Assembly (NCBI RefSeq): GCF_000024005.1
Contig: NC_013132.1
Location: forward strand, 5,760,001 to 5,824,000
Length of the DNA: 64,000 bases
Reading direction: 5' to 3'
DNA from: Chitinophaga pinensis DSM 2588
Lineage (GTDB): Bacteria > Bacteroidota > Bacteroidia > Chitinophagales > Chitinophagaceae
The first letter of the stretch is position 1; each line of letters begins with the position of its first letter. Made by a program: the position numbers and the translations under genes. This document shows positions 1,849-44,720 of the stretch, piece after piece. The notes under the pieces are model-generated. The model did not search any database and was not told the DNA's origin. It saw nothing but the letters and a program-made list of their open reading frames with translations.

Positions 1849-4800
1849 ATGAAATTGTACAAAAGATTCGTGCATGTCATCCTGTTTATGGCCTTCTGGA
1901 GCCAGGGTATTCATAGCGCTCAGGCACAAAATGGAGACCAGATACTGGACGGCATCGGTGAAACGGGGATGATAGCGCGTTATGTTTTTAACGGAGATCT
2001 GAAAGATTGGTCCCGGAATACCCTGCACGGTAAATCCCAGGGAAATGAAGTGTTTTTTGTCAATGACGACCGTTTTGGAAAGGTATTATCCCTTTCCGGC
2101 AATAACAATGCTTTCATTACACTTCCCGCGGAAACATTGTCAGACATAGAATCGCTTAGCATATCAGGATGGATATACCTGCATTCCAGCCAGACGGGGC
2201 AATGTTTTTTTGACTTTGGAAAAGATGCCGGTCAGCATCTTTTTGCAGCTCCTACCGGAACAAGCACACAGGAAGGCTATCAGGTAGTAATAGCTGCGGA
2301 CAAAAGTAATCAGCGCAGCGCTGTTGCGCCTGCCATCGCCATAAATAAATGGGTACATATGGTCATCGTCATAGATATTCCTTCGAAATCCATGCTCACC
2401 TATGTTGATAGTAAACCAGTAGGCGAAACAAAGGATATTCCTTCCGGCGTATTGGCCTTATTCAGTCCTGGAAAAAAGCAGCTCTATATCGGGAAGTCAT
2501 TAGTCCCCGGCGATCCCAATCTGAATGCCATGATACATGATTTCCGCATTTACCGTGTTGCACTGAGTAACAGACAGGTTGCCGGCATTTATAATCACGC
2601 ACGACGGGGATTGAATGAAGAAGTGGTCAATACGACAGGCAAACAGGAGGATGATCTCCCTCACTTCCCGCCGACAGAAGCCCGGTTATACAATACTTAT
2701 TTAATACGTGTGGCGGATGTTAAAGTGGAGACCTCAGTCGGAAACTTACCACGCTTGCCCGCTTATGTACAGGGTACCTATCAGCATAATAAGAAAGGGC
2801 CGCAGGTACGGGTGATCTGGCCTTCACCTGTCGACAACACTGCGGTACTGAAAACCGGGCAATACACCCTTACAGGACGTGTACCAGGCACGAATTTTCA
2901 GCCAAAGGCACTTGTTACCGTAAAAAGTGTCACTCAATCCCCCGCAGCTACTTTAAAGCTGGAGCCGTTTAAGCTGGGACAGGTTGCACTGAAAAATGAT
3001 GCACATGGGCATGAGACCCAATTCGTCGAAAACCGTGATAAGTTCATACGGACATTAGCCACTACCGATCCGAACTCCTTTCTCTATATGTTCCGTCATG
3101 CTTTTGGTCGGCAGCAGCCTGAAGGCGCTAAACCTTTAGATGTGTGGGACAGTCAGGATACCAAGTTGAGAGGACATGCTACAGGACATTACCTGACAGC
3201 CATTGCGCAAGCTTATGCGAGTACGGGATATGACAAGACCTTACAGCAGAATTTCGAACAGAAAATGGCGTACATGGTCAACACGCTCTATGAGTTGTCC
3301 CTGTTATCAGGAAACCCTAAGGAAACAGGCGGAGTCGCCGTATCCGATCCTACCGCGGTGCCTTATGGTCCCGGCAAGTCAGGATATGACTCAGATCTGA
3401 GTAATGAAGGTATCCGCAATGATTACTGGAACTGGGGTAAAGGATTCATCAGTGCTTATCCTCCGGATCAGTTTATCATGCTGGAGAAGGGCGCTAAGTA
3501 CGGCGGACAAAAGAACCAGATATGGGCGCCCTACTACACCCTGCATAAGATACTGGCTGGCCTGATGGATGTTTATGAAGTAAGTGGTAATCAAAAAGCG
3601 CTTACGGTAGCTACAGGTATGGGAGACTGGGTATATGCCCGGTTGAGTCATGTGCCACAGGATACACTCATAAAGATGTGGAACACCTATATCGCCGGTG
3701 AATTCGGCGGCATGAATGAGGCCATGGCCCGTCTTTACCTGATTACCGGCAAACAGCAATACCTGCAGACGGCGCAGTTGTTTGACAATATCAGGGTCTT
3801 CTTTGGCGATACTGCACATTCACATGGACTGGCTAAAAATGTGGATATTTTCCGTGGATTACATGCCAATCAGCATATCCCCCAGATCGTAGGAAGTATA
3901 GAAATGTACCGTGCTTCCAATAATCCGGAGTATTATAAAATAGCCGATAACTTCTGGTACAAGGCAGTCAATGATTATATGTACAGTATCGGAGGCGTCG
4001 CAGGTGCACGTAATCCCGCTAACGCGGAATGTTTTATCAGTCAGCCTGCTACCTTGTATGAGAACGGTTTCTCTTCTGGAGGACAGAACGAAACCTGTGC
4101 CACCTACAATATGCTGAAGCTAACCAGTGACCTGTTCCTCTTCGATCAACGGGCGGAATTCATGGACTATTATGAGCGGGCGTTATACAACCACATTCTT
4201 GCTTCCGTTGCCAAAGATAACCCTGCCAATACCTATCACGTGCCACTCCGGCCTGGTGCAATCAAACAGTTTGGCAATCCGGATATGACAGGTTTTACCT
4301 GTTGTAACGGTACAGCTATCGAGAGCAATACCAAGTTGCAGAATACCATCTATTTTAAGAGCAGGGATAATCAGGCGCTCTATGTCAATCTGTATATTCC
4401 CTCTACTTTACAATGGACAGAGCGGAATGTAACCATAGAACAAACAACAGATTTCCCGAAAGAAGACGATACCCGTCTTACGATCAAAGGCAATGGACAA
4501 TTTGATATCAATGTACGTGTGCCTGGCTGGGCGACAAAAGGATTTTTTGTGAAGATTAATGGTAAAGAACAGGCACTTACCGCTAAGCCGGGTACTTACC
4601 TGACCATCCGCCGGCAATGGAAAGACGGCGATATCATAGACCTAAAAATGCCTTTCCGGTTCCACCTTGATCCGGTAATGGATCAGCAGAACATTGCGAG
4701 CCTTTTTTACGGACCGATCCTGCTGGCAGCACAGGAAGGGGAAGCCAGAAAGGATTGGCGCAAAATAACCCTGAATGCAGACGATATCAGCAAGTCCATC

Positions 4801-33761: not shown

Positions 33762-36700
33762 ATGAGAAGGCAGCTTTTCGGACTTCAATGTTTGTGCTTT
33801 TTGATGTGTTTTGTGTTTAATACATCCGCACAGTCAAATATTGGAGATCCACAGTTTGACTATTCACCGAAAACGCCAGCCGTTGGAGCGATGCAACAGG
33901 CGATTGATGTTCCGGTAAGTCATTTTACAGGTTCGGGTAGTTTTGCGATTCCACTGCATACAGCCCGATCAAAGGATATAACTGTACCTATAACGATAGT
34001 ATATCAGGCAGGTGGTATAAAAGTAGACCAGGATGCTACAATGGTTGGTCTGGGCTGGGAGTTTAAAGGCGGAGGAATGATTTCGCGTACGGTTAGGGGA
34101 AATCCTGACGAGGGTTTGATTACTAAAATATGGAAGGATACAATTGTTACAGTAGTTGGAACCAGGCGTGACACCACAATTCGCTATCACAGTAAGGTGG
34201 AGGAGTATGTCGACATGAAAGGCAAACATGGTGGGTTTTATGTAGATAATGGCAATTCACTAGATATTCCGGTTTTATCGACTGTTATGCAGCAACATAA
34301 TGATGCCATTAAAAATGGACAGGTTCCCTCACCTTCAGATATGGACTGGACTTTTTATGGACTAAATGACGCTTCCCCAGATCTATTTTATTATGATTTT
34401 GGGAACTACTCAGGAAAATTCTTTTTTGGTAATAACAGGGAGCCGGTACTTGTTCCTTATAATAAGGATATCAAAATCACGCCTGTTTTCTCCCAACAAA
34501 ACCTGAATGGCTGGACTAATTATTATTTTGACACCTGGTCTATTACTACTCCTGACGGGGTTACCTATTTCTTCGGCGAAACAGATAACTCAAAAAGTTA
34601 CGCTACGTTTCAGGGTGGACGTCGCCCCAATGCCTGGGCATTGACTAAAGTAGTAAACAATCTCACAAAAGACAGTGTGTTGTTTACCTATGATAAAGCA
34701 ATTTCTTCTCACACAGGTACTTTTAATAAGGAGGATTTTGTGACACAACAACAATTGGATTCATGCAACTGGCCATCTTTTACAAAAGCTGTTGAGGTAA
34801 ATGGTATGGAGGAGTGTCAGCTTGCTACTATCACTACCAGAAATGAACAATTGAACTTTTATTATTCTACTACTGACAGTAATTACTATCATGAGCAAAC
34901 AGTTACAACGCGTTTTAACCGGCTCGATTCTTTTATTGTAAAGAACGTAAATAGTGCTGTGCCTTATAAAAAAATTCAATTTACATATGGCAGTTTTCTA
35001 TCTAAAAAACTTAAATTAATGGAAGTACTGGTAATGAACTATCAGCGTACCCAAATCATGCCTTACACTTTCAATTATTATGACACGGCATTCAGAAAAG
35101 TGAGGGTAAATTCAGATTCGATACCATTTTTTAGCTACTACGCTCAGGACTACTGGGGGTACTACAACGATGCACGCAATGATCTGAAAACGACATTGTA
35201 TATAAATGGTTGTAACGGTGAGGGTATGGTGTCCAGGAAGGCTGCCTGGCCACAGATGCAAAGAGACGCGTTGACTGAAATATTATATCCGACAGGTGGA
35301 AAAGTGAGGCTCATTTATGAACCCCATAGCGCATCGGGTGGTAGACTTATGAACGGTTTGGTGGGAGACTATGAGACGTTTTTCTGCGATGCTCATCACA
35401 ATTTTTCTATTACCGATACCATCGGTGGATTAAGGATAAAAAGAATTGAACAGATTGATCCTGTTAACAATGATACCCTGATTAAAACATTTAAGTACAA
35501 TATTTTTGGATCTGCATTGTCCTCCGGATTTTTAAACAGTACTCCTTCAATAGTGACCGATGTGAGTAATTTCCAGTATTGCGGTAATACGATAAGTAAG
35601 CCTAAATACCTGGTCAGTACCCAAAATCAGCAGTCTGGTGCTGGCGCGGGGCCATATATCTCCTATAAAAATGTCAGCGTCGCTCAGGAGCGCCGGGGTG
35701 TGCAGAATGGTAATACGCAGTATGAATATTATGACGATACAAATACAGATTCATCGTTTTATTTCAATATATGCACGAATACAAATTACTGTTTCCCCGG
35801 TAGTTACGATGTATTGCCGAACTGGCAGGTACGTAAACCGTTTGAAAACTTATTGGCAGGTTCTGTTAAAAGTACAAGAACTTATAATAGCGCGGGACAG
35901 CTATTAAAGGAGGAAAAGATGACCTATGAGGCTGTCAGATATCCCGTTATGGCAAGGATAATTGAGCTAAGCAGCTTACTAAATACAAAGATATGTGATC
36001 GCCCACCGCTCCCAACCTATGATTATGGTAATCATCCAGGTGTTCATTACATGAATAGACCAGAAGATTCATATACATTCTTCAGGACGTATGCAATTGG
36101 CAAGATGTCGGTATTGACGCGAAAAATAACAACAGATGTCTATGACGTCAATGGTAATAAGATGACGGATACGACAACCTTGTACTATGAAAGCCCATAT
36201 CATATCAATCCAACGACCTCTAAAACAATCGCAAGTAATGGTGATACGCTTCGCACTGAAACAATTTTCTCCATGGATCTGAAGGATGTTAATGGAACAG
36301 ATTCGTTGGGGTTACAGATGCGCAATGCATCTTTGAATATACCTGTAGCTTCTTTTACGAAACGGAATAATCTGGTTTACAGTGGTGGATATATTTTGTA
36401 CAAAAGAACATCTCCACAGGATACTAAGAGTATTTTAAAAAGAGAGGAATTTAAACTAACCACAAGTACCGGAGTGGCTCCATTGGCACTTAACCTTAGT
36501 AGTACATATCCTAAAATACTAAATTTTCCATCTACGCTGTTTCAGCGGCAGGCCGCTTTGAGTTATGACAATGATAATAACCCCATACAGCTGGTCACGA
36601 AAGATCAGGAGGTGCGAGGGCTTATATGGGGATATAACAATACACTGCTGATAGCTGATGTGACAAATGTAGGCATAGGAGAGATTGCTTTCACAGGATT

Positions 36701-37730
36701 TGAGGGTAGCGATAAAGGCAACTGGACAATACCCTCTGCAACGAGAAGTAATCTGTTTTTTACAGGTTCGAAATCATATGTTTTGGCTGCCGGAAATATC
36801 ACTTTTAACAGGATTCCAACTAACAAAAAAGTCGTTGTTTCCTATTGGGCAATGGGTGGCACTTCACAAGTTAATGGAATTTCAGTTACAGGCGGTCCGA
36901 TGAGAAATGGCTGGACTTATTACGAGCATCTTCTGCCTGAAACAACAACTACTGTGACTGTAAGTGGCAATGCCAACATTGATGAACTTAGAATGTACCC
37001 AGCAGGAAGTCTTGTAACAACCTATAACTATGATCCTATATTGGGACTGACGTCTGGTGTTTCGCCCGACAACCAAACAACTTACTATGAATACGATACA
37101 CTTTATGGGTTAACAACTACCAGGGATGCCTATAAAAATGTTATTAAGGAAACAGAGTATTACGCTGTTGGGTTTAATACCACAGCCCCTATATGGCGTT
37201 CCACAGGTCAATCAAGATGTAAGCCGTGTCCAGCAAATGCTGCATATACGACTGACACGCTGCAATTGTTGTATGCGGACTATAACCCCAAAAGCACTAC
37301 CTGGAAGTCTCTAAAGTGGGAGGACGCGGGCAAGTCTACCACTTGTCCCATTGTAGCCGGATGGACTAACACTTCAACACCAGCACGCTGCCAGTTGACA
37401 ACTGGAGGACAACCAAATGGTAACCAGGAGCAGGAACAGATAGACGCAAATCCCTGCAGTCCTACCTATAATACCAAACGATGGGTGATTGTTGGTGTAC
37501 CTAATACCGTTTGTGTTGCTTGTATCGGTGTTGATAAGAAGGTAATCGGGGGTGTTTGTCAGACAGGAAACAGGGTGAATAGTTCTTCTCAGGCTGTTTT
37601 GCAGCCAGGTGGAGGGGTGCTGTATAAATGTACTTATCATTTTGAATGGAGTGATTGCAGCAAGAGTGCTGACTTCACCGAGAATAATGCAACACCATGT
37701 ACAATTAATTTAAGTTGTAGCGACTGGTAA
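33762..37730 (+). CDS. Large secreted RHS/YD-repeat-related protein without RHS core
   Basis: 1322 residues with a signal peptide (ends NTSAQ near 24). Residues about 30-110 hold the block 'FTGSGSFAIPLHTARSKDIT' and 'VGLGWEFKGGGMISRTVRG', which opens many Bacteroidota RHS-associated shell proteins (SpvB-like). YD-type strands such as 'TYNYDPILGLTSGVSPDNQTT' occur near 1090-1110. The last 170 residues are Cys-rich ('CKPCPANAAY', 'CVACIGVDKK', 'CTINLSCSDW'). No RHS DPxG core or toxin tip is present. It lies 93 bp before the second RHS gene and may help encapsulate it. AT-rich compared with the flanks. Confidence 0.75.
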   Translation: MRRQLFGLQCLCFLMCFVFNTSAQSNIGDPQFDYSPKTPAVGAMQQAIDVPVSHFTGSGSFAIPLHTARSKDITVPITIVYQAGGIKVDQDATMVGLGWEFKGGGMISRTVRGNPDEGLITKIWKDTIVTVVGTRRDTTIRYHSKVEEYVDMKGKHGGFYVDNGNSLDIPVLSTVMQQHNDAIKNGQVPSPSDMDWTFYGLNDASPDLFYYDFGNYSGKFFFGNNREPVLVPYNKDIKITPVFSQQNLNGWTNYYFDTWSITTPDGVTYFFGETDNSKSYATFQGGRRPNAWALTKVVNNLTKDSVLFTYDKAISSHTGTFNKEDFVTQQQLDSCNWPSFTKAVEVNGMEECQLATITTRNEQLNFYYSTTDSNYYHEQTVTTRFNRLDSFIVKNVNSAVPYKKIQFTYGSFLSKKLKLMEVLVMNYQRTQIMPYTFNYYDTAFRKVRVNSDSIPFFSYYAQDYWGYYNDARNDLKTTLYINGCNGEGMVSRKAAWPQMQRDALTEILYPTGGKVRLIYEPHSASGGRLMNGLVGDYETFFCDAHHNFSITDTIGGLRIKRIEQIDPVNNDTLIKTFKYNIFGSALSSGFLNSTPSIVTDVSNFQYCGNTISKPKYLVSTQNQQSGAGAGPYISYKNVSVAQERRGVQNGNTQYEYYDDTNTDSSFYFNICTNTNYCFPGSYDVLPNWQVRKPFENLLAGSVKSTRTYNSAGQLLKEEKMTYEAVRYPVMARIIELSSLLNTKICDRPPLPTYDYGNHPGVHYMNRPEDSYTFFRTYAIGKMSVLTRKITTDVYDVNGNKMTDTTTLYYESPYHINPTTSKTIASNGDTLRTETIFSMDLKDVNGTDSLGLQMRNASLNIPVASFTKRNNLVYSGGYILYKRTSPQDTKSILKREEFKLTTSTGVAPLALNLSSTYPKILNFPSTLFQRQAALSYDNDNNPIQLVTKDQEVRGLIWGYNNTLLIADVTNVGIGEIAFTGFEGSDKGNWTIPSATRSNLFFTGSKSYVLAAGNITFNRIPTNKKVVVSYWAMGGTSQVNGISVTGGPMRNGWTYYEHLLPETTTTVTVSGNANIDELRMYPAGSLVTTYNYDPILGLTSGVSPDNQTTYYEYDTLYGLTTTRDAYKNVIKETEYYAVGFNTTAPIWRSTGQSRCKPCPANAAYTTDTLQLLYADYNPKSTTWKSLKWEDAGKSTTCPIVAGWTNTSTPARCQLTTGGQPNGNQEQEQIDANPCSPTYNTKRWVIVGVPNTVCVACIGVDKKVIGGVCQTGNRVNSSSQAVLQPGGGVLYKCTYHFEWSDCSKSADFTENNATPCTINLSCSDW

Positions 37731-40800: not shown

Positions 40801-42209
40801 CTGGCGATACGGTTCAGATCAATGCGAAGGCTTTCTATAAATCTCAGGGACCAACGGACAATACGGCCAAGGCTGCTGTAGAGGATATGATTGCTGGATT
40901 GGTACAGGCTTTTGGTAGTAGTGTTGGGGAAAGTGATTTGCATGCTTCAGAAGTCGTTTCGAATAATACTCCTTTTAACGCAGATTTCTATAATAATGAT
41001 TATCAACGTTTAAAAGAGAAAAGTCAGGCAAATGAAGAGTCTAACCGCCCTAAGGCTTATTTAAACTTTGTTTTATTCGACGATGATTTTAAATTAGTGA
41101 AGGATAACAGCGGGGTAAGGCAGATCAAGGCTGACCCGAACGAGCTGCAAGAGCTTGGTGTGGATAAGATGGCGGTTGCCAAAAGTGGTTTCTTGTACGT
41201 TTATACGAGCAACGAAAGTCAGCAGGATGTGTTCTTTGATAATGTTGTGTTGGGATTGAGTAGCGGACCTCTATTGGAAGAAACGCATTATTATCCGTTT
41301 GGCTTGACGATGGCGGGGATATCGACAAATGCGTTGAAGGGTGTGAATTATGCTAAGAACAGAAAGGAGTTTAATGGAATTGAGCATACTACCGATCTTG
41401 ATCTTAATCAATACGATGCTTTTTATAGGACATTAGATCCGCAGATTGGGAGATGGGCGCAGGTTGATCCTAGACCTCATGAGATGTTTAGTCCTTATGT
41501 TGCCATGGCAGGAAATCCCATTCTATACTCTGATCCTCTTGGCGATACCACCTATAGATTTGATACCAAGGGAATTTATTTAGGGATGTTTGACACCGAC
41601 CAAGCAGGAATGGTGGGTGCATTCGGATCGAATTCTACGTCTAAAGATGGGAAGGGTAACGAGAAAACAACATATAATGCAATTACCTATTTTGGTTTCA
41701 ACGATCCAGAAAATGATGCAGAACAATTGGCTACCATGACAGTTGGACTAAAAGGATTAGTAATAGTTTCAGACGAAAACATTAATTATGTGATGGATAG
41801 ATCAGATAGCAAACACAGATCTATGATTTCGCGATGGTTTTTTGCTTTTAGAGAAAGCGAAGACCGAATGGACTTTAATTGGAACTATACGTTACCAAGT
41901 CAGGGGGTACTTCCTAACTCCCATGATATGTCTGACTACGATGGCATTGGCGGATTTATGTTATTTTCGGGTGCAAGTACAAATGCATATAATTTAAATG
42001 ATGCAGGGCAATTTTTATGGGGAAACTCTATGCAGCGAATGGGTTTCGGATACTTTAGTGCAAAATTCGGTTCTCAAGCGAACGAGTTATTTGGTGATAC
42101 GAAGGCCGATCAACAAGCAATAAGAAAAGGATTCCATTATAAAGTACGCACATCGAAAATAGCTGCTGGACCATTTAATGGTTTACCTAGAGAAGTAGAG
42201 GACAAATAA
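37824..42209 (+). CDS. RHS repeat protein with DUF6443 start and polymorphic C-terminal tip
   Basis: 1461 residues. Order: signal peptide (about 1-26); DUF6443 ('NYVRTWEPDMPLTDPAAV' and 'LDGLGRPLQTVSKATSPNGRD', about 50-110); YD repeats (about 110-950); RHS core ('EETHYYPFGLTMAGIS', about 1150) ending 'NPILYSDPLGD' near 1242; then a variable tip of about 220 residues. The tip contains 'DYDGIGGFMLFSGASTNAYN', 'DAGQFLWGNSM' and 'AKFGSQANELF'; it looks like a toxin domain but I cannot assign its activity. The next gene, 27 bp away, is the candidate immunity protein. A partial copy of the core lies at 43171. Confidence 0.85.
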   Translation: MEFNKNVIHPITLGAFLIVPVFLAAQNKPGGIRTTATPVAVPAAYTNTQTNYVRTWEPDMPLTDPAAVVSAARKAREVKQTTQYLDGLGRPLQTVSKATSPNGRDIVVPVVYDAYGREEFKYLPYVQQTASDGKFKMAPFSAQRDFYKNGVLNPGVAEDSIYYSRTQYESSPLNRPLKGYAPGSSWAAKPAETRYLVNTVSDSVRIWNMGTVVPTSNSNYGAGQLQKNVSIDEHGSQVVEFKDKEDRVVLKKVQIANNPGTGHIGWLCTYYVYDNLGMLRFVIPPLAVEAIKGGWTISTVVANELCFQYQYDTRQRMTLKQVPGAGALLMVYDVRDRLVFTQDSVQRAKSPMEWLVTFYDDINRPTMTAIYKATATRDTLQARTNRAPTYQSVSYVQAAKADLALYSHDGTPLYTATNSIELLDGFDTNGSGDTEAKIDGSVTGDTNIITASNPLPNIPASALTPLSYTFYDNYNYSGKLAFVGTDTGKLLAADTLYPERLPITNVTQGLVTGSKIRVLGTEKWLTTTTYYDDKARAIQVVSENNLGGKDVFNTLYSFKGLVLGTYLRHQNPKSSMSQSTLLTTMTYDHGGRLLTVRKRLNDDVNQEKLIASNSYDELGQLRLKRLGVTSSGSMIDSLNYTYNIRGWLQGINKNFVNSGTSTSNWFGQELSYDYGFDSAQYNGNISGVKWKTRADSAWAYGYNYDKANRLAGAYFTQKNGGSWAQDKKNFSVSNLSYDANSNIKTMLQKGMVGTTSKTIDSLIYSYSANSNKLAGVRDIDSSITKSAQLGDFIDGNTGATDYGYDGNGNLISDLNKRITSISYNHLNLPSVITITGKGTITYQYDASGNKLSKTVLDNSGSSPKTTVTDYAGAFVYRQDSLELIGHEEGRIRPIYKSGQPIVYAYDYFEKDHLGNVRTVLTDQTDFTMYAATMETEAAPQEAALFSNVEETRAEKPSGYPEDQTTEENKSVAKLNAKQGGKKIGPSLVLRVMAGDTVQINAKAFYKSQGPTDNTAKAAVEDMIAGLVQAFGSSVGESDLHASEVVSNNTPFNADFYNNDYQRLKEKSQANEESNRPKAYLNFVLFDDDFKLVKDNSGVRQIKADPNELQELGVDKMAVAKSGFLYVYTSNESQQDVFFDNVVLGLSSGPLLEETHYYPFGLTMAGISTNALKGVNYAKNRKEFNGIEHTTDLDLNQYDAFYRTLDPQIGRWAQVDPRPHEMFSPYVAMAGNPILYSDPLGDTTYRFDTKGIYLGMFDTDQAGMVGAFGSNSTSKDGKGNEKTTYNAITYFGFNDPENDAEQLATMTVGLKGLVIVSDENINYVMDRSDSKHRSMISRWFFAFRESEDRMDFNWNYTLPSQGVLPNSHDMSDYDGIGGFMLFSGASTNAYNLNDAGQFLWGNSMQRMGFGYFSAKFGSQANELFGDTKADQQAIRKGFHYKVRTSKIAAGPFNGLPREVEDK

Positions 42210-42236
42210 ATTGTTAATTTCTTATTTGGATCAAAA

Positions 42237-42557
42237 ATGAATAAAAGTATGAAAAAGTGGTGGGAAACCAGAAGGTTAGTATTTAACGTTTATATTATTT
42301 TAAGTGGACTTCTTTGTTTAATAACAATGAGGTTATTAAATCGGGCTTCCGTCAATTTCTTTATGGCCCCCTTTCTTTTATTTTACTTATTGCTTCTTAA
42401 TATAGGATATACTCTGTTTTATATTTTATTTTGCAAACGTGTAGAACAAGATGATATAAACCTAATAAAAAGGAAATTTAACGGACTCGTTATAGGAGTT
42501 ATATTAGTCGATATACTCTTAGCTTATTTGATAGTGACTACTATACCGCATCATTAA
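42237..42557 (+). CDS. Small three-helix membrane protein, candidate RHS immunity protein
   Basis: 106 residues. After 'KKWWETRRLVFNVYIILSGL' come three hydrophobic helices, near 15-32, 42-65 and 82-102, with no other domain. It begins 27 bp after the RHS stop, is on the same strand, and is closed by a hairpin terminator at 42605. In polymorphic toxin loci the gene directly after a variable tip usually encodes its immunity protein. The role is inferred from position. It might also be an unrelated membrane protein. Confidence 0.65.
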   Translation: MNKSMKKWWETRRLVFNVYIILSGLLCLITMRLLNRASVNFFMAPFLLFYLLLLNIGYTLFYILFCKRVEQDDINLIKRKFNGLVIGVILVDILLAYLIVTTIPHH

Positions 42558-42951: not shown

Positions 42952-43171
42952 CTAGTTGTTTGAATTGATGAGGTTTACGATTACTTTGATCATGGTGTCT
43001 TTCTCTTCAGACTTACTCTCTGCAATCATTAATGTAAGTGCAACGAGTGCGTTATCTGCAATCCGCTTGGCACCATGCTTTGTATATAAGATGGCGTTTT
43101 TATCCATAAACCAAACAAAAAGATAAGCCGCAATTCTTTTATTACCATCTGAAAAGGAATGATTCTTTACA
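42952..43171 (-). pseudogene. C-terminal remnant of a Fic family gene
   Basis: The minus strand encodes 'VVKNHSFSDGNKRIAAYLFV', which contains the Fic motif HxFxDGNxR, then 'RIADNALVALTLMIAESKSE' and an intact C-terminus. This matches the end of the RhuM-linked Fic/DOC proteins. Everything upstream of the motif is lost: the sequence changes at about 43165-43175 into a copied RHS segment running on the opposite strand. No proper start codon remains, so it is a truncated gene. Confidence 0.7.
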
Positions 43172-43323
43172 ACGAAAGCCAACAGGAGGTGTTGTTTGAT
43201 AATGTTGTGCTGGGATTGAGTAGCGGCCCGCTACCGGAGGAAACGCATTATTATCCGTTTGGACTGACGATGGCGAGGATATCGACGAATGCGTTGTAGG
43301 GTGCGCATTATGCGGAAAACAGA
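43171..43323 (+). repeat. Duplicated RHS core segment, interrupted by a stop codon
   Basis: From 43171 the sequence aligns without gaps to 41211 onward in the full-length RHS gene, with about 20 mismatches in the first 140 bases by eye. The copied frame encodes 'EETHYYPFGLTMARIS' but has TAG at 43297-43299 where the intact gene has AAG. The frame reopens and continues into the gene at 43324. It is the anchor of an orphan tip cassette. Confidence 0.85.
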
Positions 43324-44232
43324 GTGAAGTATAATGGAAAGGAATTGCAGCGCAGAGAATTTGCAGACGGAAGTGGGCTGGAATGGTATGATTACGGAGC
43401 GAGGATGTATGACCAGCAGATTGGGAGATGGCATGTGGTGGATCCTAAATCTGAAAAGTATAACTATATTTCCCCGTATAATTATGCGTTAAACGATCCT
43501 ATCAAATTTATTGATCCCGATGGGAAGGATGTTCGTATAAGCATTGACAACGAAAAACGTATGATTATACTATCGTCGAACATCTTTGTGATAGGCGCAG
43601 GAGCAAAAGAACAAACTGAAAAGTATAATCAATTTCTTGCAGATAACGCAAGACTATTAAGTGGCACGTTTAATGATGATGAAGGAAACGAATGGAGCAT
43701 CTCATTAGATATAAAGTACCAAGAGGGAACTCAGGAGGACAAAAAGAGAATCGCCGACAACCCAAATGGTGATAACATTTTAGATCTAGAGGCTCATGGT
43801 AACTTTGCTCGAGCTGAGAGCATCGACGGTCGAACTCCCGAAGGAAAATTCGTTCGGGCTGATCCAAATGATCCATATAGCAGAATAATTGCGCGATACA
43901 ATGGCATCGGTCGACGAACAGTTATCGGAATTGGACAAAACCACAATTCTGCATTTTCAAACGGGTTGACCGGTTTCCATGAAAGTTTGCATTTGTTTGG
44001 GCTTGAAGATAGATATTTCCTAACCTCACAAAGGGAATTTGCAGGCGCTCATAGCGGTTATGATGGAGACGTTATGGGAGTACCAGCTAATTACCCTGCG
44101 AGCAAACTAACAATGCATAAAAGTCACTTCCAAAACTGGGGGAATTATATTCTGAACAATAAATTACCTTCTGGATCAATTATAAACGTAAATGTGGATA
44201 GAAATCCTAAAACACAAGAATTACTCCCATGA
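43324..44232 (+). CDS. Orphan RHS tip with metzincin-like zinc metallopeptidase domain
   Basis: 302 residues from a GTG at 43324, just after the stop in the copied core. Residues 1-68 are the end of the RHS core ('[20 protein letters not shown]', '[10 protein letters not shown]'-like end). The remaining roughly 230 residues are a new tip. It contains His219-Glu220-Ser-Leu-His223-Leu-Phe-Gly226-Leu-Glu-Asp229, which fits the metzincin zinc site HExxHxxGxxH/D, and 'DVMG' at 249-252 as a candidate Met-turn. This predicts a zinc endopeptidase toxin. It lacks signal peptide and repeats, so alone it is probably a silent cassette. Its stop overlaps the next gene's ATG. Confidence 0.75.
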
Positions 44233-44720
44233 AAATAAAAAAATATTTGATTGCTACAATTTTGATATTAGGTTGTTCTTCGTGCAACAAGGTTTTTTTC
44301 GCTGACAAAGCAACTATTCTTCATGAGCAAGATGGATATATCTTTGAGCAAAAAAATCAAATGATCTTTGTTCCGCTTGATATAAATTTTGATTTTTTTA
44401 GCCAGATTACAAATAAAAAAGGATACCGAATATACCAGGCACCAGGCTATGACGATGCTAAATATGCTCAGGGAGATAGCGCTGTATTGAATTTACATTA
44501 TTTAGATTCAAAAAGTAAGTCCGATGCGATATTGAGTGAGAAGGTTCATTTGGTGAGAGTTAAGGTGGTTTACACAGAAAACAAAAAAAGCTTGTCAAAT
44601 GAGAAAGCTGAAATTCGATTTGATTTTCAAGATAAACTCTATTCCTTTACAGCCTACGCCAATCGTTATTTACAGGTTTACCAAGTAGTTGGTGTTATAT
44701 CCAAATTGGATCGGAAGTAA
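44229..44720 (+). CDS. Lipoprotein, candidate immunity protein for the metallopeptidase tip
   Basis: 163 residues beginning [19 protein letters not shown]. The lipobox LILGC gives a lipidated Cys16, so the protein should sit in the periplasm or outer membrane. The mature part is beta-rich and not recognised. The ATG overlaps the toxin-tip stop (ATGA), which implies translational coupling. A periplasmic lipoprotein is a fitting inhibitor for a secreted peptidase. The role is inferred from position and coupling. A terminator follows at 44751. Confidence 0.65.

Follow-up and report, generated by a model that had tools for sequence, protein, structure and literature searches.

Metallopeptidase domains are known from the tips of RHS proteins, with five zincin toxin families, Tox-MPTase1-5, of which families 1-3 are listed from Bacteroidetes (Zhang et al. 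2012, PMC3482391). The C-terminal domain of VgrG2b and its partner PA0261 (Tpe-Tpi) associate a periplasm-acting metallopeptidase with an exported immunity protein that is always adjacent and that is predicted to be a lipoprotein in some species (PMC6899460). Among the KLIKK proteases of Tannerella forsythia, the metzincin karilysin is inhibited by potempin A (PMC7296668; 8b2m, 8b2n, 8b2q). In Salmonella, an orphan fragment was fused to the main rhs gene via a 522-bp repeat of 95% identity (PMC3967940), and the TANFOR/BaCT polymorphic toxins of Bacteroidetes have an immunity gene behind them and a proposed use of the type IX secretion system (T9SS; PMC7073777). In the parts of these sources drawn on here, RHS tips with metallopeptidase domains, metallopeptidase toxins whose immunity protein is a lipoprotein, orphan Rhs cassettes and Bacteroidetes polymorphic toxins with proposed T9SS use are thus already published. 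The locus described below lies in a 64-kb window, i.e. the whole stretch of DNA analysed, of the single-contig genome (9,127,347 bases) of Chitinophaga pinensis DSM 2588. In this soil bacterium, a short copy of an RHS core is joined to a new tip domain and followed by a lipoprotein gene, and the element is likely to represent a displaced polymorphic-toxin ("orphan") cassette of a signal-peptide-bearing RHS locus, with a metzincin-type tip and an inhibitory lipoprotein as immunity protein.

The anatomy of the cassette, the conservation of its motif and partner, the predicted fold and the full-length relatives were computed directly, and the corresponding features are listed in Table 1, in which signal peptides were assigned by eye. 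As proposed in a first-pass annotation made from the sequence alone, a copy of the RHS core is fused to a new tip, with the NCBIfam model of the Rhs core end (TIGR03696) matching residues 12-67 of the 302-aa open reading frame (ORF) at 1.3e-13. To this can be added an in-frame stop in the core copy, overlooked at first pass, which precedes the intact 302-codon ORF. The copy starts ca. 0.6 kb beyond the small membrane-protein ORF and forms a direct repeat in the same orientation as the core of the main gene. The displaced rhs fragment has an internal GTG as its sole ORF start, is devoid of start and export signals of its own and is located downstream of the main rhs gene, as is characteristic of an orphan Rhs module. 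The tip and lipoprotein ORFs are joined by an ATGA overlap, and the lipoprotein-type N-terminus of the latter, together with the recurrence of the partner beside other tips, agrees with the coupled lipoprotein gene initially annotated.

Table 1. Features of the displaced cassette and of the neighbouring RHS locus (window positions)
Feature	Coordinates	Strand	Basis or remark
Displaced RHS core copy	43170..43339	+	86% identity over 170 nt with 41210-41379; in-frame stop inside (translation)
ORF, 302 aa, GTG start	43324..44232	+	RHS core end (residues 1 to ~70) fused to new tip; ORF list
Tip domain, 232 aa, predicted metzincin-like zinc peptidase	43534..44232	+	Relatives, snapalysin profile match, model and structural rows
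Zinc-site motif HExxHxxGxxD, 11 residues	43978..44010	+	ORF residues 219-229: His219, Glu220, His223, Asp229; columns invariant
Candidate Met-turn Met251 (tip Met181), in GDVMG segment	44074..44076	+	Sequence and model
Lipoprotein gene, 163 aa, candidate immunity protein	44229..44720	+	Candidate lipobox Cys19; relatives beside other tips; model
Main RHS gene, 1461 aa	37824..42209	+	DUF6443, Rhs core, signal-peptide-like start
Current tip of main RHS protein	41550..42209	+	Unlike displaced tip by eye; no Pfam or NCBIfam match
Small membrane-protein ORF behind current tip, its candidate partner	42237..42557	+	Hydrophobic by eye
Large gene upstream of main RHS gene	33762..37730	+	Signal-peptide-like start; G091 has a similar gene ahead of its tip-bearing RHS gene (by eye)
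Fic/DOC-type gene, truncated	42952..43182	-	PF02661 1.3e-5, profile positions 69-93 of 93; abuts start of displaced core copy

The HExxHxxGxxD motif and the candidate Met-turn were both located where they had been annotated, and the motif is kept in relatives. The tip occurs at 17 places in 14 genomes (own and 13 relatives), 15 of which were aligned, those of G300 and G347 being absent from the ORF scan and read by eye instead. HExxH and the Asp do not vary among the 15 aligned tips and are present at all 17 places, with the full motif at 16 of them (G366 has Ala for Gly), and since HExxH and Asp are kept throughout, the motif is more than a chance occurrence. Nearly all homologues retain the His and Glu residues, whose loss would have spoken against a zinc site; one exception among the database proteins is discussed below. 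A Met at the expected place is found in the window tip and in most of the 15 aligned rows, while L043 and L045 carry other residues. In the tip model, an active-site helix, a Gly turn, the Asp, the Met segment and a C-terminal helix follow each other in this order, so that zinc ligands lying far apart, the other possible objection, are not suggested by this model, which speaks to the order of the elements and not to ligand distances. Taken together, sequence and model indicate that the tip is probably a metzincin-type zinc peptidase with the Asp as predicted third ligand, as in snapalysin.

Profile searches, recommended at first pass, gave a mixed outcome: a match to the snapalysin family (which we take to be M7) was obtained at 2.2e-4, whereas Pfam and NCBIfam searches of the 302-aa window ORF returned the Rhs core only. 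Across the 15 tips, Pfam yielded weak single-member matches to Reprolysin_3 (0.013) and Reprolysin_5 (0.023), and Glyco_tran_WbsX, matched in one tip at 8.5e-5, was considered unrelated. An assignment to M6 was not adopted, NCBIfam TIGR03296 being matched by eight of the 15 tips (best 1.4e-4) and not by that of the window. None of the 15 tips matched the Tox-MPTase Pfam models at E 1 in a search that does detect Tox-MPTase3 in another RHS locus of the genome (L005, 6.3e-12). Several observations weigh against a metzincin-type peptidase: the snapalysin match spans just 46 profile positions around the motif; P0003, one of nine database proteins, reads HETLY and is devoid of the second His; Foldseek by itself found nothing at E 0.001 for the tip model, with Ras-like chains ranked top; and the Z values of the structural comparison are below 8 throughout.

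When used alone as a query against the genome contigs, the window tip retrieved no relative, and with A2 as query four loci were retrieved. In a phylum-wide sample, the tip was detected in one of 395 genomes, namely its own, and the family therefore looks concentrated in the taxonomic family of C. pinensis. A survey for the tip on full-length RHS proteins, as had been suggested, was successful, with proteins of 1584, 1328 and 1457 aa in G091, G309 and G347, respectively, that end in the tip and have a signal-peptide-like start; long tip-bearing proteins with such a start also occur in G300, G366 and G001. One tip is thus found behind the RHS cores of various proteins and genomes, and related cores of the C. 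pinensis genome in turn carry various tips. A second tip/lipoprotein pair of C. pinensis (L042:4975-6055, minus strand; G000:C1:5276000-5290000) follows a long RHS core, from which the tip is cut off by an in-frame stop. Behind the metzincin-like cassettes of G091 (L033:1853-3619, minus strand) and G003 (L031:1985-3094, minus strand) there are additional displaced pieces of RHS core that carry other tips, so that displaced-tip arrays look common here.

An exported-type ORF is located directly downstream of the tip at 15 of the 17 places, these ORFs not all belonging to one sequence family. The lipoprotein of the window is predicted from its model to be OB-like, with potempin A giving the top structural rows, tied with other OB folds; Foldseek alone was uninformative. 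In G347, one full-length tip-bearing RHS gene is followed by two signal-peptide partners in tandem that share 51% identity (L041:4021-5462, minus strand). A lipoprotein gene is retained in G244 behind a tip remnant without HExxH (L066:3974-4784, plus strand), upstream of which a second cassette (2651-3973) combines HELGH with a signal-peptide partner, while in G007 a lone lipoprotein of the family comes after a 785-aa non-RHS frame with HEVGH (L064:2929-3432, minus strand).

Other findings on the partner count against the interpretation as a toxin and its immunity protein. Next to one tip the partner is of a different kind (297 aa), and next to another it is an 80-aa membrane protein. The distance correlation, computed for 12 of the 17 places plus C. 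fulva (omitting the second G277 place, G300, G347, G198 and G366, with L048 unused as it is near L032), is explicable by plain linkage too. Eleven other RHS loci of the genome were viewed as a control, eight of which could be read (not L006, L009 and L011). The outcome was mixed: L003, L005 and L010 have exported-looking partners, L004 and L013 membrane-bound ones, and L007, L008 and L012 partners that carry no signal. As five of the eight have exported or membrane partners, such a partner is not special to peptidase tips. The family scan of the control loci was restricted to the L005 protein, in addition to the window's own tip. At L005, an RHS protein ends in the Tox-MPTase3 domain mentioned above (L005:799-3114, minus strand; G000:C1:8877033-8880233) and its gene has a 4-base overlap with a signal-peptide gene encoding a candidate immunity protein (L005:344-802, minus strand), Tox-MPTase3 being listed without an immunity protein in the consulted part of PMC3482391. 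With this pair and the displaced cassette, two different peptidase families of the C. pinensis genome each provide a metallopeptidase tip that is followed by an exported partner.

The structural rows also bear on a different function, namely that of a secreted or surface peptidase whose lipoprotein shields the surface of the producer, as for the KLIKK proteases and potempins of T. forsythia, rather than an inter-bacterial toxin. Potempins are reported to be small lipoproteins encoded immediately ahead of their target protease (PMC7296668), and potempin A heads the rows for the lipoprotein model, but these rows are level with those of other OB folds. In addition, the tips occupy an exchangeable position behind the RHS core, as is typical of polymorphic toxins, and displaced cassettes, tandem partners and tip-less partners suit toxin/immunity evolution better, which makes such self-protection unlikely. 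It is even less probable that the peptidase targets eukaryotes, e.g. soil amoebae or fungi: Table 2 of PMC3482391 gives no immunity protein for Tox-MPTase1-5, which would fit such targets, yet the exported partner conserved at most places suggests that the producer needs self-protection. A toxin and its immunity protein remain the preferred interpretation.

The cassette had been viewed at first pass as silent and able to replace the current tip by homologous recombination, of which the displaced tip and partner are borne out whereas replacement is weakly founded, the shared stretch being short, diverged and interrupted by an in-frame stop. An active store, in which a crossover between the 170-nt repeats would put the metzincin-like tip in place of the current one, is compatible with the direct orientation of the repeat, with the Salmonella precedent (PMC3967940, in the part considered here) and with the tip being carried by full-length RHS proteins in relatives. 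However, with a repeat of this size and divergence and a stop inside the cassette's copy, most crossovers would not yield an open fusion; reuse by recombination is thus possible but weakly supported, and an active store appears rather doubtful. To a similar degree, we hesitate to regard the cassette as a decaying remnant whose tip and lipoprotein are no longer expressed or selected. The stop in the core copy, the truncated Fic gene at the edge and the stop between core and tip at the second locus of this genome all point to decay, as does the lack of a consensus promoter before the lipoprotein gene, but both ORFs are intact and their motifs complete. The promoter scan used a Bacteroidetes-type pattern and gave two matches in the window versus 2.3 expected, none of them before the lipoprotein gene, so that separate expression is neither supported nor excluded.

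Under the toxin/immunity interpretation, peptidase activity, toxicity, inhibition, delivery and the silence of the toxin part are inferred. When carried by a complete RHS protein, the tip would be exported, then delivered to a neighbouring cell, where it may cleave envelope proteins; the lipoprotein, itself in the envelope, would bind and block the peptidase, whether incoming or home-made, and thereby protect the producer and its kin. In C. pinensis, the toxin part is probably silent because it has no signal peptide and no RHS shell and is separated from its own core fragment by an in-frame stop, and the lipoprotein is possibly still produced as stand-by immunity. No match to VipB/TssC, the sheath of the type VI secretion system (T6SS), was detected in the C. 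pinensis genome or in the 13 relatives, a search that a divergent T6SS could escape. SprA, a component of the T9SS, is present in C. pinensis and in 11 of the 13 tip-bearing relatives and missing in G277 and G309, two members of the same genus group, and no sorting domain scored above cut-off in the tip-bearing protein of G091. The T9SS was set aside as the only delivery route since both SprA-less genomes carry the tip, provided that the toxin works in them. A broader scheme, in which the lipoprotein family would consist of potempin-like OB-fold inhibitors acting as immunity proteins, one design would serve surface proteases and RHS tips, and the RHS shell would need no T6SS nor, in the two SprA-less carriers, a T9SS, is put forward tentatively.

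Two observations concern the surroundings of the cassette. The current tip and the small membrane protein behind it (41550-42557) constitute a further toxin/partner candidate, and the Fic/DOC-type gene breaks off exactly at the start of the displaced RHS copy, which may correspond to a recombination scar.

That a metzincin-type RHS tip with a lipoprotein as immunity protein would be new to Bacteroidota was overstated, Tox-MPTase1-3 RHS tips and VgrG2b with lipoprotein immunity being published; for the peptidase tip family and the lipoprotein family themselves, no description was found in the open-licence literature searched. A toxin-tip family thereby gains a definition and a ready candidate inhibitor, and the cell envelope is indicated as the place where a group of Bacteroidota RHS proteins would act. 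Should the partner prove potempin-like, bacterial surface-protease inhibitors would be linked with polymorphic-toxin immunity, and the two SprA-less carriers make the delivery route testable.

Compared with known systems, on the basis of the portions of the cited sources used here, the tip resembles Tox-MPTase1-5 in that it is a predicted zincin with HExxH and forms the C-terminal end of RHS proteins (PMC3482391); it differs from them in matching none of their models and in its candidate immunity protein, none being listed for those families. With VgrG2b/PA0261 it shares a periplasmic metallopeptidase toxin, predicted here, and an adjacent exported or lipoprotein partner, a likeness of arrangement and predicted function, whereas VgrG2b rides the VgrG spike of a T6SS. 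Snapalysin, a zinc protease of Streptomyces (1c7k, 4hx3), is a single secreted domain of 132 aa, in contrast to a 232-aa tip that is RHS-borne and has a lipoprotein partner, and sequence similarity between the two is confined to the active site. As in potempin/KLIKK pairs, a small lipoprotein gene adjoins the gene of a protease, here a predicted one. TANFOR/BaCT systems are likewise polymorphic toxins of Bacteroidetes with an immunity gene (a candidate here) behind them, but they combine a DNase tip with a TANFOR shell, unlike the RHS shell of the present family, in which SprA is not found in every carrier. Finally, as in the orphan Rhs-CT (C-terminal)/immunity modules of Salmonella (PMC3967940), a displaced 3' fragment of rhs and an immunity gene lie downstream of the main gene without start or export signals, with a repeat that is here shorter, more diverged and interrupted by a stop, and with a Bacteroidota RHS shell that contains DUF6443.
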